DNA of 64,000 bases from positions 1 to 64,000 of the IMG/VR virus record IMGVR_UViG_3300027833_000022; one strand, given 5' to 3'. Below are positions 51,832 through 56,149 of the stretch, piece by piece (positions within the stretch are counted from its first letter, which is position 1; each line of letters opens with the position of its first letter). The notes beneath the pieces were generated by a model. It did not search any database, was not told where the DNA came from, and saw only the letters and a program-made list of their open reading frames with translations. The DNA is from a virus. The position numbers and the translations under genes were made by a program.

Positions 51832-53851
51832 GTATATTCTCCGATGTTTTTATCTTTTCTACTTCTTCAACAACTTGTCGTAAGTGGTCAACAAGTGAAC
51901 TATCTAATTGGTACATATTTTTAAACTTCATACCAACTATATTTAACTCATCTACATATACTTTTTTACTACCTATAGGTGAATCAGGATCTCTTATATT
52001 AGCATACCATCTACCATCAGGACGCTGAATTGGAACCGGACCACCGCCTTCTGCAAATTGCTCTGGACTGAAATGTTTGTTTAAAATATTATATGCTGAT
52101 AAATATTTTTGTGCATCAACTTTATCTTCATCTATGCTGGTTGGTTTATATTTTCCTATATTACTTATATAGGCATTTGCCTCCGCAGATGGATGTCCTT
52201 GTCCCATGCGCTTTGGTAATCCTTTAGAAGTTGTATATGGTTCTTTTTCATCATTATCATCATCTTCTGACGGTATCAATCCAACAAGTTTAAGTCCACC
52301 TTCAACTGATCTCAGTGCACCTTCAAACTTTTTAACAGCGATTGCACCTAGTGCATAACCAGGAGTTAATTCATGTACCACCGATCTAAATGCAATTCGC
52401 GCTGCATCTATTGCATCAATTGAACTATCTGCTTGTTCAGTCAATGCTCTGACATTCTCTAACCCAGAATCTAATTGATTTTTTGTCAAATCCATGAATG
52501 CTTCTGGTGCTATACGTGCTTGTGCTATTAAATCGTTTGATTGTTGAACTATAGGGTCATCTCCATATCTGGGACTCGCCTTTGATATTGATGTTGTTAA
52601 TTCTTTTACTCTCATCACCAATTCTGGTTGTGTTAGTTGCCCTGTTCCAGATTGTTCCAATATATCTGTAAATTTCTTTGACACATCAGGACCAAGTGCA
52701 CTCAACATATTAATCATTTCTTTAGGCATATTATTTAATACAGATGAATCTATATTGATATCTTTCAAAAAATTATTAAATACTTGTTCTGTTTGCTCTC
52801 CAAATTGAGGACCTAGTACAGTGCTGAATAGCATCTTTATATTTGCTCCAGTATTTCTAACATTCTCTTCTGCATTTTTTCCGTACTTATCTGACAGATA
52901 TTTGGCATTCATAGATATTGCTGTCATAAAATCTATATTGGTCATCGCTTCACTTCGCATTGCCAATAATGCACTTCTCTGATCACCAAATTTTTCTGCA
53001 AGAAACGTAGTCATTGCACTACTTGATTCAAAATTCTTTCTTATTTTATCTTTCGCCACTTGACCAAATTGTTCTAATTCACCTGTCATGTACATTAAAT
53101 TGGCTTCTTCTAACAATCTTGCAGTTTGTTGTTCAACATTGTAACCAAAATCACCCATTGTCTTTGATGCATCAGATTCTACTTTTCCAGCAAAATTTAT
53201 AAATTGAATTGTAGTATCCATCAAGTCTGCTGGCATATTTGCAAGCATGACTTTATTTCCTGTCATAATTTTTGACATTTCTTGCATACTCATGCCAACG
53301 CCCGCTAATGCTTCTCTCATAACAGTATATTGATTCATATTACCAACAACACCGCCATAGTCTATTATTTGTCTTAATCCTTTTTCTTGCTCGGACATAA
53401 GTTTTGCATATATTGCGGTTACGCCAACTGCTGCAACTGCGGCTCCTGTGCCAAAATTTAATAACGATGACACGACTGCCCCCTTAGGACCAAGATATTT
53501 TGAAAACGAAGTTATACCACCAATTGTGTCATCTATTGCTCCGACACTCAGTTTCAATAATTCTGCGGTTGCTACCAATGGATCAGTATCTCGTGTAGCA
53601 ACACCAAACAAATTTTTAGATGCGGATTCCATCTTTATAATTAGTTTGTTTGTTTTTTTAAATGATTTTTCAGAATCTTCAAATTCTTTTTTAACAACAT
53701 CATAATCAAACGCAACACCAGTTAATGACTTAAATGTCTTCTTTAACTTATTATTATCAGATTCGGTTGCTGCGGCAATCTTCCCTAATGTATCCTCACT
53801 TGCCCAAGGATAACGCTGGTGAATCTGCCTGATGTCGTCTTCTATTGCCAT
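51821..53851 (-). CDS. Tape-measure-like tail protein 2
   Basis: A 676-aa protein paralogous in layout to the downstream gene. It starts 'DDIRQIHQRYPWASEDTLGKIAAATE' (shared 'WASE(E/D)TL-KIA--T'), has a hydrophobic segment about residues 122-147 ('FGTGAAVAAVGVTAIYAKLM'), a long helical middle, and a C-terminal 'FAEGGGPVPIQRPDG' reminiscent of the tape-measure GGPV motif. A canonical TATAAATA precedes it. Adjacent to gp26/chaperone on the opposite strand, as tape-measure genes adjoin tail chaperones in other phages. It could be a co-assembling hub or second tape measure. Confidence 0.7.
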   Translation of the reverse strand: MAIEDDIRQIHQRYPWASEDTLGKIAAATESDNNKLKKTFKSLTGVAFDYDVVKKEFEDSEKSFKKTNKLIIKMESASKNLFGVATRDTDPLVATAELLKLSVGAIDDTIGGITSFSKYLGPKGAVVSSLLNFGTGAAVAAVGVTAIYAKLMSEQEKGLRQIIDYGGVVGNMNQYTVMREALAGVGMSMQEMSKIMTGNKVMLANMPADLMDTTIQFINFAGKVESDASKTMGDFGYNVEQQTARLLEEANLMYMTGELEQFGQVAKDKIRKNFESSSAMTTFLAEKFGDQRSALLAMRSEAMTNIDFMTAISMNAKYLSDKYGKNAEENVRNTGANIKMLFSTVLGPQFGEQTEQVFNNFLKDINIDSSVLNNMPKEMINMLSALGPDVSKKFTDILEQSGTGQLTQPELVMRVKELTTSISKASPRYGDDPIVQQSNDLIAQARIAPEAFMDLTKNQLDSGLENVRALTEQADSSIDAIDAARIAFRSVVHELTPGYALGAIAVKKFEGALRSVEGGLKLVGLIPSEDDDNDEKEPYTTSKGLPKRMGQGHPSAEANAYISNIGKYKPTSIDEDKVDAQKYLSAYNILNKHFSPEQFAEGGGPVPIQRPDGRWYANIRDPDSPIGSKKVYVDELNIVGMKFKNMYQLDSSLVDHLRQVVEEVEKIKTSENIHGG

Positions 53852-53872
53852 AATTAAGTACCTATTTAATAG

Positions 53873-53880
53873 GATAAATA
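53873..53880 (+). promoter_or_regulatory. T4-type late promoter (GATAAATA) for gp26
   Basis: GATAAATA on the plus strand, 53 nt upstream of the gp26 ATG (53934). Confidence 0.65.
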
Positions 53881-53912
53881 CAGTTACGAAACTATTTTAT
53901 CACTTTACTTAC

Positions 53913-53920
53913 TATTTATA
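53913..53920 (-). promoter_or_regulatory. Canonical late promoter TATAAATA for the tape-measure unit
   Basis: Perfect TATAAATA on the minus strand, 61 nt upstream of the 676-aa gene. It faces the plus-strand box at 53873-53880, so the two transcripts overlap at their 5' ends. Confidence 0.78.
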
Positions 53921-53933
53921 TGGAGTACAAAAA

Positions 53934-54764
53934 ATGAGTAACAATCCTTTATTGAATGCGTACAAAGTACCATCAACTTACATAAGTCTACCTTCTGGTG
54001 GGAAATATTACACCGAAAAGCCTAAATTAAGTGCTGACGGTGAATTGGCAATCTACCCAATGACAGCAAGAGATGAAATAATCTCAAAGACACCAGATGC
54101 ATTATTTAACGGAGAAGCAACTGTTGCGTTACTTGAATCATGTTGTCCAGATATAATTGACCCTAAATCAACACCCGTTAATGACTTAATGGTAATATTA
54201 CTTGCTATACGCAAAGCGAGTTATGGAGATGGAATAGACATTGATATTAAATGCCCATCTTGCAGTGAATTTAACATGCTTGAAATGGATATAAACCGAA
54301 TTCTTGGATCTGTGAAATCTAACGAAATATCAAACACATTGAAATTACAAGATAAATTTGATGTCAAGTTGAAGCCCTATAATGTGAATGATAGAACATT
54401 AATACAGATACAACAAATCCAACAAGAACGAATGATACAAGAACTTGCGAATTCTGATTTATCGGATGAGGATAGAAATAAAAAATTTGGAAAAACATTT
54501 GTAGATATATCCACGCTTACAATTAATCTTATGGTAAATTGCATTGTATCTGTATCATTCGATGGTGATGTGATAATTGATAGGGAAATTATTAGAGAAT
54601 GGTTACATAATATAACAAAGTCTGATTATAAAGAGATGAAAGATCATATTGAAAAAATCTCAGATAGTGGCATCAATACTGAATTTAAGGCAGTATGTCA
54701 ACACTGTTCACATGAATGGGAATCTGAGGTAGAACTAGATATGTCAAATTTTTTCGCAGGCTGA
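53934..54764 (+). CDS. 26: gp26-like baseplate hub/tail assembly protein
   Basis: A 276-aa protein starting at 53934 (MSNNPLLNAYKVPSTYISLPSGGKYYTE) behind TGGAG; the frame from 53832 lacks a site. The 'LPSGGKYY', 'YPMTARDEIISKTPDALFNG' and 'LLAIRKASYGD' segments fit the T4 base-plate protein family (gp26). A zinc-ribbon is visible: C107-P-S-C110 and C255-Q-H-C258. T4 gp26 (208 aa) is an assembly factor for the hub and is followed by gp51. Here the final codons contain a slippery site leading into an overlapping -1 frame (54728-54961), so part of the product may be extended by 69 residues. Confidence 0.78.
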   Translation: MSNNPLLNAYKVPSTYISLPSGGKYYTEKPKLSADGELAIYPMTARDEIISKTPDALFNGEATVALLESCCPDIIDPKSTPVNDLMVILLAIRKASYGDGIDIDIKCPSCSEFNMLEMDINRILGSVKSNEISNTLKLQDKFDVKLKPYNVNDRTLIQIQQIQQERMIQELANSDLSDEDRNKKFGKTFVDISTLTINLMVNCIVSVSFDGDVIIDREIIREWLHNITKSDYKEMKDHIEKISDSGINTEFKAVCQHCSHEWESEVELDMSNFFAG

Positions 54765-54961
54765 TAGCAACAAGTCAGCCGCACGAAATACCAGACATAC
54801 TGAACAGATATAAAAATGATCTAACTAAACTAAATTCTAATTATATGGATATTCTCATTATTTCACAAGGTGCATTGACATACGAATCATTGATGTCTAT
54901 GCCATTACCCATGATTGACTTATTTGTCAAGAGACATAATGAAAGAAATAGCGAATCATAA
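54728..54961 (+). CDS. -1 frameshift extension of gp26 (gp51/chaperone-like)
   Basis: This frame is open from 54728 to TAA at 54959-54961 but has no credible start. In the gp26 frame the sequence AAATTTTTTC (54746-54755) holds two overlapping -1 slip heptamers, A AAT TTT and T TTT TTC. A shift joins gp26 (...SNFF) to 'RRLIATSQPHEIPDILNRYK', about 69 residues ending 'YESLMSMPLPMIDLFVKRHN', a pattern like tail-chaperone C-terminal domains. A 6-bp stem (54759-54764/54775-54780) starts 3 nt downstream and includes the gp26 stop codon. By position this is gp51 (T4 order 26-51). Length differs from T4 gp51 (249), so the name is not certain. Confidence 0.7.
   Translation, partial: GRTRYVKFFRRLIATSQPHEIPDILNRYKNDLTKLNSNYMDILIISQGALTYESLMSMPLPMIDLFVKRHNERNSES
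54746..54780 (+). promoter_or_regulatory. -1 programmed frameshift signal
   Basis: Slippery sequence AAATTTTTTC at 54746-54755 followed by the stem-loop GGCTGA (54759-54764) / TCAGCC (54775-54780) with a 10-nt loop. This is the classic two-part signal (slip site plus downstream structure), although the 3-nt spacer is shorter than usual. The gp26 TGA lies inside the stem. Confidence 0.65.
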
Positions 54962-54991
54962 TCGTTCACTATTTCATCATAGTATTTCTTT

Positions 54992-55107
54992 GTTTAAGGA
55001 ACAACATAATAATGTAGTCACATAAACATTGCTTCGCAATGAACATCTTCGTAAAATATCTCATTCGTTACACTCATTCGTATTTTACTTAATGTTGTTC
55101 TTTAAAC
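54992..55107. repeat. Long imperfect inverted repeat with nested hairpins
   Basis: A 16-bp stem (54992-55007 with 55092-55107, one G:T wobble) encloses the hairpins CATTGC-TTC-GCAATG (55027-55041) and GTAAAATA/TATTTTAC (55051-55058/55081-55088), a three-way-junction layout. A direct repeat CTCATTCGT lies in the second loop. It may end the gp26 transcript and/or form the 3' domain of the candidate RNA. Confidence 0.8.
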
Positions 55108-55567
55108 ACATACTGTTTCTAACTGTTATCAATGATATATAATGATTGGGCTATTGTATAACTATTATCTATTTTTCCAGGATCTTGATCCACACTTCGC
55201 TTATGCAGCGAAAGTGAAAAATTTGTTAAATGAAAAGAAAGTTTTTTCCTATCACCCAATCACACTTCGATATAACAAACCCAATTTTACACTTGGGGGA
55301 GGCGGTTACGCTGTACCTCTTATTACATGCTGCTTCAAGCAACGCAAGAACATCAATTTCCATATCGTCGGATTTTGACTACTCGTAGGTTTCAATAGTT
55401 CAGAAGAGCCTACTCTTTTCGGTTGGTCAGACCAGTGCAATGACCAGAGAGAAACACGTGGAAGTCCATCGGCTTCGCCTCAACGGCGGCAGATTCATCA
55501 CGGATACGGTATCAGTATCATCCATCTAAGTTTTATAGGGTTCTGAGGGGAGTTGCCAATGTGGGGT

Positions 55568-55643
55568 GTTTAAGTGCTTGTTTAGAGGGTTGTTTAAGTT
55601 TTTTGTTTAAGTTTTTTGTTTAAGTTTTTTGTTTAAGTGTTTA
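55568..55643. repeat. Short tandem repeat, GTTTAAGTTTTTT type
   Basis: GTTTAAG or a near copy starts at 55568, 55580, 55592, 55605, 55618 and 55631, with spacing of 12-13 nt; the last four share the unit GTTTAAGTTTTTT or nearly so. On the minus strand this reads as CTTAAACAAAAAA repeats, forming the A-rich 5' end of the candidate RNA. Single copies of the complement recur near 54988-55107. Confidence 0.85.
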
Positions 55644-55654
55644 TTCGTTTAATA

Positions 55655-55682
55655 AGTATACATGATTTTTAGTGCCTGTCAA
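55655..55682 (-). promoter_or_regulatory. Sigma70-type promoter with no downstream gene
   Basis: Minus strand TTGACA (55682-55677), 16-nt spacer, TATACT (55660-55655), with the start expected near 55648. It lies just after the GIY-YIG gene stop (55691) and points into the gene-free region. Confidence 0.75.
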
Positions 55683-55690
55683 GTATAATT

Positions 55691-56149
55691 TCATTTGCCT
55701 GAGGATTTAGTTTCGTTTAGGTGTTCTTTAAGAACTTTTGAGCCGCCAACTCTAACATTGATGATTCCATTATAGTAATCATCTGTTTCAAGTACTCTGC
55801 GTTCAAACTGTTCGCGTGCTTCTAGATAACTGGCAATGCCTCTTGTTGGGCACATATGAATAATTTCTCGTGTGAAACTATCTTTGCCTAGTTCTTCAAC
55901 GTCTGCATTAAGTCTATCACTGGAACCAAAATATTCTTTCCAATCACTTTCTTTAGTACCACGTCTTTTATTCTTTTTTCCTTTCAGTGGCGGTTTAGTA
56001 GTTTTAAACTTTGCTAGTTTTTTACCTACATACAACATACCACTGACTGTATTTGTTATTACATAAACAAATGCTTCGCATCCTTCCGGCAACTTTTCTA
56101 CTACATTACCTTCATATGTCCATTCATATGTTACATTATTTTTTTCCAC
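55691..56149 (-). CDS. GIY-YIG endonuclease (SegE-like)
   Basis: A 152-aa protein. The GIY-YIG pattern appears as 'FVYVITNTVSGMLYVGKKLAKF' (Val-Tyr-Val ... Leu-Tyr-Val-Gly-Lys-Lys, residues about 27-47), followed by 'SDWKEYFGSSDRLNADVEELGKDSFTREIIHMCPTR', with the conserved Arg and a catalytic-type Glu in 'YLEAREQFERRVL'. This is the T4 Seg-type freestanding homing nuclease family. It starts with GTG at 56149, overlapping the preceding stop by 14 nt. It may be a mobile gene, but its tight coupling to the gp46 operon suggests settled function or expression. It lies directly before the candidate RNA region. Confidence 0.85.
   Translation of the reverse strand: MEKNNVTYEWTYEGNVVEKLPEGCEAFVYVITNTVSGMLYVGKKLAKFKTTKPPLKGKKNKRRGTKESDWKEYFGSSDRLNADVEELGKDSFTREIIHMCPTRGIASYLEAREQFERRVLETDDYYNGIINVRVGGSKVLKEHLNETKSSGK

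Follow-up and report, generated by a model that had tools for sequence, protein, structure and literature searches.

A Putative Family of Large Structured RNAs in Jumbo Phages, with Twin Repeats That Change Together

Comparison among related phages shows that the gene-free stretch beside the baseplate-hub gene of this virus encodes, on the minus strand, what can be read as a structured non-coding RNA of ~410 nt, in which a conserved 3' half is joined to a fast-diverging 5' domain; the same kind of comparison places it in a wide family of predicted jumbo-phage RNAs that lie mostly near the hub gene. What would a phage do with such a molecule? Our best explanation as a whole, to which we give a probability of about one-half, is that it is a structured, trans-acting scaffold RNA and that twin tags within it would dock a partner that evolves along with them.

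The window (the whole stretch of DNA analyzed, bases 1-64000 of a 103,158-base IMG/VR virus record) has the gene set of a T4-like jumbo phage, including a gp26-like baseplate hub, SegE, gp46/gp47 (SbcC/SbcD-like), and a late sigma factor. For its gp46 and hub proteins, the closest annotated relatives are held by jumbo phages such as Phosso, PA5oct, Atu_ph07, CBB, GAP32, and RaK2.

A conserved core in a gene-free stretch

The first-pass annotation had pointed to a long stretch without genes as the place of a large structured RNA with its own promoter. The stretch is indeed there, 926 bases (54765-55690) that separate the hub gene on the plus strand from SegE on the minus strand, and its landmarks are as follows.

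53832-54764, plus strand: gp26-like baseplate-hub gene, convergent, the synteny anchor (PF12322, E 3e-20; PHROG 150, E 1.2e-23)
55141-55550, minus strand: putative conserved RNA core, ~410 nt, with ends placed by conservation
55567-55652, minus strand: leader, rich in A and containing a tandem repeat of 13 nt (acttaaacaaaaa type), its length varying among relatives
55655-55682, minus strand: sigma70-type promoter, TTGACA-N16-TATACT, with 11 of 12 consensus matches
55691-56149, minus strand: SegE-type GIY-YIG endonuclease gene, upstream of the RNA (PF19835, E 3.9e-33)

Where does the RNA begin and end? The close-relative loci, taken from IMG/VR, provide six distinct core sequences with the window's included, and four of these relatives (L010, L005, L006, and L007) match the window across 55550-55141 at 397, 398, 398, and 392 of 410 positions, respectively (96-97%). 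Elsewhere, the same four agree at 57-87 of 101 positions in the leader, at 116-128 of 156 in the 3' flank, and at 154-161 of 192 (80-84%) in the end of the hub gene, with SegE at 89-97% in its DNA. The earlier boundaries, 55648-54992, are not borne out, and the conserved RNA is the shorter piece, 55550-55141. The promoter proposed for it is present at 55682-55655 on the minus strand, within a block in which 34-36 of 39 positions are identical in the four relatives; both hexamers are retained in the close-relative alignment, except that L010 has TATAAT. A scan of the region finds 4 promoter-like sites vs. a mean of 6.8 in shuffled sequences, and therefore, it is conservation rather than score that supports this promoter.

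Other parts of that first description fared unevenly. The enrichment in GC is real (47.5% at 55300-55599 vs. about 29-39% around it), and the 8-bp stem between 55255-55262 and 55143-55150 pairs perfectly. The supposed richness in hairpins did not hold up: the fold energy has a z of -0.85, 16 of 100 shuffles fold equally well, and single-sequence folding gives no energy signal either for the window or for L161 (z -0.43). The 3' stem described as 16 bp pairs at 15 of its 16 positions, and in the relatives, within the 3' flank compared above, its arms are by eye non-complementary.

Two side observations concern the same flank. At ~54945-54984 lie the last codons of a 162-aa gene, the remainder of which is deleted in the window; it stands intact between the RNA and the hub gene in the four aligned close relatives and is DUF6217-like at best, below the cut-off. 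Downstream of the RNA, small GCGAAGC-type hairpins occur at 55027-55041 in the window and, as judged by eye, at many other loci, and these are possibly terminators or repeat elements.

Could the stretch encode a protein after all? No reading frame is conserved across relatives, in that none is common to the eight more distant ones examined; a 78-aa ORF on the plus strand has no counterpart in those eight. A 45-aa frame in the sense direction (minus strand) has its ATG at the pseudoknot described below; of 12 aligned sequences, 8 retain that ATG, and it is absent in L147, L153, L115, L185, and L004. The frame it opens is 45 aa long in the window, whereas the four more distant members of the clade that retain the ATG have frames of 23, 53, 22, and 12 aa.

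The fold and the family that shares it

The fold was examined at two depths. The shallower is an alignment of the window's own clade, with 12 sequences, 11 of them distinct (the window, its close relatives, L145, L146, L147, L149, L151, L153, L115, and L185), from which the following elements are predicted.

55385-55413, minus strand: helix Pa, GUAGG (55413-55409) with CCUAC (55389-55385); 100% paired, double changes in 4 of 5 pairs
55268-55367, minus strand: pseudoknot, CGAUAU (55367-55362) with AUAUCG (55273-55268); 89% paired, double changes in 4 of 6 pairs
55274-55324, minus strand: helix He, AAUAA (55324-55320) with UUGUU (55278-55274); 88% paired, zero double changes in the window clade
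55299-55319, minus strand: helix Hc, GAGG (55319-55316) with CCUC (55302-55299); 100% paired, double changes in 3 of 4 pairs
55280-55297, minus strand: hairpin Hx, CCCAA (55297-55293) with UUGGG (55284-55280); 73% paired, double changes in 2 of 5 pairs, found in part of the window clade only
55193-55216, minus strand: terminal hairpin CACUUUCGC...GCGAAGUG, from sequence; the equivalent helix is 98% paired in the larger family
55143-55262, minus strand: 8-bp stem, UGAUUGGG (55262-55255) with CCCAAUCA (55150-55143); perfect

Read from 5' to 3', the 3' half consists of the Pa hairpin, a second hairpin that forms the pseudoknot by pairing of its loop with downstream sequence, the He/Hc stem with its conserved GGUACNGNNNAACCGCC loop motif (55317-55301), which Hc closes, and the terminal hairpin. 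Across the clade alignment, 90.6% of cells are paired (33.5-50.4% when the structure is slid along the sequences), and there are 45 double-change cells vs. 16.0 in shuffles; the count of further pair types is not above shuffles (281 of 500). The changes themselves are instructive: Pa appears in other clade members as ACGAG/CUCGU, UCAAG/CUUGA, GUGAG/CUCAC, GCAAG/CUUGC, and GUGGG/CCCAC, and the pseudoknot appears as UAUCAU/AUGAUA, UACCAU/AUGGUA, and UAAUAU/AUAUUA, with L153, L115, and L185 out of register at this helix in the alignment. The 8-bp stem is invariant in the four relatives aligned over both arms, and it therefore carries no covariation test. When we asked how long a helix each sequence can form in the pseudoknot region, the clade's own arms gave a mean of 19.9 vs. 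14.4 for arms swapped between members, with 4 of 72 swaps reaching the own mean and with the longest helix in the window itself being one other than the pseudoknot; the test is weak for Pa (14 of 72) and Hc (24 of 72).

The deeper comparison began with the neighboring gene. Searches with the hub protein gave at least 592 relatives, 80 of which were kept, and the motif GG[TC]NNNGNNN[AG]ACCGCC yielded 53 distinct rows, among them the window and its close relatives; in every row, the motif and the hub gene are on opposite strands (some rows, such as L168, may be chance). Alignment A3, made of 24 of these 53, covers the 3' half and folds into a hairpin H1, a pseudoknot from the H1 loop, Hd, He, Hc, and the terminal hairpin. 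In it, 98.2% of 816 cells are paired (slid controls, 35.6-47.6%), both partners change in 19 of the 34 pairs, and double-change cells number 106 vs. 27.8 +/- 4.5 in shuffles, figures to be read with the structure having been picked on those same sequences and the shuffles ignoring relatedness. The pseudoknot helix is 98.6% paired in this larger family, and the equivalent of He covaries there. Little of this structure emerged when a consensus fold was computed automatically from the wide MAFFT alignment.

From A3 we built a covariance model, R1, and from the window clade a second one, R2. R1 matches the window at 55188-55377 on the minus strand with a score of 20.5 bits and an E of 0.00096 over 254 kb, the next match in the window having 10.1 bits. 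It is found at E <=0.01 in 50 of 78 hub loci, although 22 of the 50 helped to build it, some are duplicates, and several of the 28 others hold little beyond the hub. All 50 are on the minus strand relative to the hub and up to ~4 kb downstream of it. R2, in turn, has matches below E 0.001 in 15 of 42 other sources, with 3.9e-13 as the best value, and these lie where R1 matches. That is, each model finds the other's members at the same places, and the two branches are therefore homologous. Covariation, reciprocal models, synteny, and the lack of a common reading frame thus support the proposed RNA, large, structured, non-coding, and with a promoter to itself.

The edges of the family are less sharp. 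Seven non-enteric records with an R1 match at E <0.01 have one clear copy each, several of these records being incomplete, and Atu_ph07 has one R1 match with E 0.04. The PA5oct gap was considered and set aside (R1 6.7 bits; R2 none), as was a pattern match in L095, which is a chance match in coding sequence. Judged by eye only, Phosso and L111 have motifs in common, and L111 also shows the terminal hairpin and GUGUGAC; neither is counted as a member. BLASTN of the region against annotated phages gave zero matches. The exact 21-base motif also occurs in L223, a 104-kb contig of a Gemmatimonadetes MAG that is perhaps a binned jumbo-phage contig.

A known motif turned up within the family. Rfam model RF01718 (Polynucleobacter-1), 141 nt long, is listed for Burkholderiales of fresh water and estuary in the tabulated entry of Weinberg et al. 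(2010, PMC2864571). It matches L112 and L114 (two of nine loci) and then 16 of 17 further loci, on the same strand and directly upstream of the R1 domain, a placement from which we take RF01718 to be the 5' domain of one branch. It gives no match in L111, L113, L115, L116, L118, L119, L120-L122, or L124, in L145 (window-type, the sole miss of the 17), or in the window, where it is absent from 54700-55800 even at E up to 10. The earlier suggestion of a new class can thus stand for the most part: the window matches no Rfam family, but the 5' domain of one branch already has an Rfam model.

The gene 5' of the RNA varies. At 55691-56149 and its equivalents in L112, L185, L124, and L120, the slot holds SegE, PDDEXK_15, or EndoVII by phage group; it looks as if unrelated branched-DNA nucleases swap in this position. 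A Holliday resolvase gene lies beside the Phosso gap, and RusA lies near the PA5oct gap without adjoining it.

Twin repeats and multiple copies

Around the terminal hairpin, the window has the same seven bases twice.

55243-55249, minus strand: direct repeat 1, GGAAAAA
55172-55178, minus strand: direct repeat 2, GGAAAAA

Is this anything more than a coincidence of A-rich sequence? In the other branch, we collected 118 distinct RNAs that fit the repeat pattern (20 further motif places that fail it were left out), and the seven bases at the two places are identical in 117 of the 118 vs. 19.4 expected from independent draws, with ten versions of the repeat among them. When 116 RNAs are placed on a tree from which the repeats were withheld, parsimony puts 23, 2, 10, and 13-14 changes at repeat positions 1, 2, 5, and 7, and 23, 2, 10, and 13 of these fall in both repeats on the same branch, counts that tree error inflates. 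The bases directly before the repeats, fixed by the pattern, differ between the two copies (CTC vs. TCT), which argues against plain gene conversion. In the flanks, positions -6, -5, +2, and +3 agree more than when swapped, and -7 and -8 agree less. A pattern-free test on 109 RNAs finds a mean of 7.1 nt in common around the hairpin vs. 5.5 swapped and 4.9 shuffled. The window's clade behaves in the same way: eight of nine lineages have a repeat of 6-10 nt, which is not the same from one lineage to the next, and the mean is 7.4 vs. 4.9 for swapped pairs. L145 has no clean repeat, and a common stretch of at least 7 nt also turns up in 7 of 72 pairs when swapped and in 7% when shuffled.

If the two repeats follow one another, what do they follow? 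A complement in the same RNA is not it: a 7-nt complement occurs in 0 of the 118, and a 6-nt one occurs in 9 vs. 16 when swapped. Complements in trans within the loci number 15 vs. 19 expected, no enrichment among 24 sequences. Two further candidates were rejected, namely a stem, S1, formed between the sequences that precede each repeat (own duplex -2.73 vs. -2.58 swapped, z -0.6) and a CsrA sponge built on GGA motifs, as many tags are without GGA. The concerted change of the twin repeats suggests, at the level of sequence, a phage-encoded partner acting in trans.

Enteric-type jumbo phages offer a second view of the same pattern. A probably related RNA lies between an EndoVII gene and the hub in GAP32, CBB, BF, Hallingskeid, and 121Q and between a "DNA endonuclease" gene and the hub in SE_PL, with one small ORF preceding the hub in all these loci. 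BLASTN with a GAP32 copy matched 31 phage records at 139 places. There are five copies each in GAP32, BF, and XaC1 and four in 121Q; the five of GAP32 and the five of BF are all on one strand (L124 9397-10202; L133-L136; L372-L376). RaK2 has two partial matches, one with the 3' motif; its hub is flanked by a 365-base gap without the motif, and the copy elsewhere (L377, 279600-280400) has its own tag version, CTTCAA.

How firmly do these RNAs join the window's family? R1 finds GAP32 twice and BF and XaC1 once each, weakly (E 0.009-0.15), and the four matches overlap BLAST-defined copies on the right strand. It missed the other GAP32, BF, and XaC1 copies and all of 121Q and RaK2, and R2 has zero matches among the enteric-type loci given to it. 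The motif CCGUUGUAU...GAC...ACCGGACAA is common to both sets. We regard the relation as probable, not proven.

In these phages, the two places carry the same hexamer in 24 of 24 copies (two partial copies left out), and paralogues within a genome carry the same one: CGTCAG in all five copies of GAP32 and all five of BF (an agreement between two phages of common ancestry, hence not independent) and CGTCAA in 3 of 3 copies of 121Q and 5 of 5 of XaC1. The RNA tree groups GAP32_35k and BF_30k with the XaC1 copies (support 0.98) despite their differing hexamers. XbC2 and XaC1 are both recorded on Xanthomonas vesicatoria and carry different tags, and the host is therefore not the explanation.

Competing explanations and known systems

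The fold is conserved, the RNA has a promoter of its own and no partner gene that always goes with it, and some phages have several copies, all of which argues for an RNA that acts in trans, and two equal, drifting tags without a complement in cis argue for a phage-encoded partner that is read twice. We imagine, then, an RNA that would be transcribed from its own early-type promoter and would serve during infection as the scaffold of an RNA-protein (or RNA-RNA) complex, with the two direct repeats as equal docking sites for one partner encoded by the phage. The specificity of the partner would drift between phages, and both sites, along with the paralogues in multi-copy genomes, would follow it. 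The existence of a partner, which may be a protein or a nucleic acid, we infer from the tag pattern. Going further, in a widespread RNA with a long-standing place near the hub gene, the repeats might be matching address tags by which a fast-drifting partner lets each phage recognize its own RNA and its paralogues, that is, an undescribed self-specific RNA-protein machine; this stronger version we hold only tentatively, at clearly less than even odds.

Might the element instead work as DNA? With ColE1 RNA II as the model, one could suppose a replication origin or something similar here, at which the structured RNA would act as primer and the repeats as sites for the initiator. Twin sites that are identical within a genome and covary between phages are iteron-like, an RNase HI gene adjoins the Phosso gap, and the five GAP32 copies are nearly evenly spaced, at 35.3, 98.8, 177.4, 261.5, and 340.7 kb of 358.7 kb (a smallest gap so large has a chance of about 0.004 by hand calculation on a circle). 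However, the XaC1 copies are less even (15, 49, 117, 209, and 303 kb), the GC skew of GAP32 has by eye no clear turn at its copies, the seven non-enteric records mentioned above, several of them incomplete, have one clear copy each, and the covariation concerns base pairs inside the transcript. We think an origin improbable.

Next to it stands the view that the RNA is a cis-acting element in the 3' UTR of the upstream nuclease mRNA or an RNA processed from that UTR. Of 10 loci tested, 9 have SegE as the neighbor of the RNA, and the RF01718 domain begins 1-8 nt from the end of SegE, or just inside it, in L112, L114, L161, and L184; in L201, the distance is 22 nt. The Polynucleobacter-1 row of the listing in PMC2864571 has a "y" in its second flag column, which, going by the row rather than the column heads, we take as cis-regulation. 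Against this, the window's promoter sits between the nuclease gene and the RNA, the EndoVII neighbor is on the other strand in GAP32, CBB, BF, Hallingskeid, and 121Q, SegE is divergent in L118, and the extra copies of GAP32 adjoin other genes, all of which makes this an unlikely account in our judgment.

Finally, the RNA might need no partner other than itself. GOLLD, ROOL, and OLE form homo-oligomers, according to the part of PMC12286853 that treats them, and the size, the phage origin, and the multi-helix fold with its pseudoknot would suit an RNA-only oligomer or cage. We would bet against it: there is no match to the GOLLD or ROOL models of Rfam, and a cage leaves unexplained why twin tags drift together without a complement in the same RNA. 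That there is no functional RNA at all, only chance conservation or a decayed gene, for which one could cite the ordinary folding energy and the 78-aa and 45-aa ORFs, is already contradicted in the main by the covariation and slid controls, by same-strand synteny in 50 of 78 loci, and by the inconstant frame lengths.

Why should a trans-acting scaffold RNA with twin tags matter? A widespread family with a covarying fold, probable relatives in several copies each in culturable Escherichia coli jumbo phages, and a two-site signature whose co-evolution points to a partner molecule make the function directly testable, and the orphan Rfam motif Polynucleobacter-1 gains a home in a jumbo-phage RNA family.

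It remains to place the RNA among its peers. The first-pass annotation had thought of GOLLD and ROOL. GOLLD is often near tRNA genes, and HEARO and omega RNAs are structured RNAs that adjoin a nuclease gene, IscB or IsrB. Infernal with Rfam gives the window zero matches at gathering thresholds and five implausible ones at E up to 10, none of them GOLLD or ROOL; there is no tRNA in these 64 kb of the 103-kb record, and membership in either family is not supported. HEARO, group I and II introns, RNase P, tmRNA (Rfam or ARAGORN), and 6S RNA likewise have no match in the window. Unlike GOLLD and ROOL, the RNA lies near a baseplate-hub gene, and neither the window nor 29 related loci match their Rfam models; unlike HEARO and omega RNAs, it adjoins SegE, PDDEXK_15, or EndoVII rather than IscB or IsrB. 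The Polynucleobacter-1 model stops short of the 3' half with its pseudoknot, and neither the twin repeats nor the synteny in jumbo phages is part of it. We found no description of the family in the open-access full-text literature, a scope that leaves aside most subscription papers and the 2010 supplement. Phage ICP1 makes an abundant ~800-nt non-coding transcript between gp139 and gp140, as the relevant passage of PMC7567579 has it, and the likeness to our RNA is one of description: both are large, non-coding, and placed where a phage genome has a gap between genes, ICP1 being lytic. Such large RNAs of phages have long been puzzling, and GOLLD and ROOL, large structured phage RNAs that now have structures, are described as being of unknown function in the portion of PMC12286853 that concerns them. 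A large structured phage RNA is, in other words, a known kind of thing; the family, its jumbo-phage distribution, and its twin tags appear to be new.
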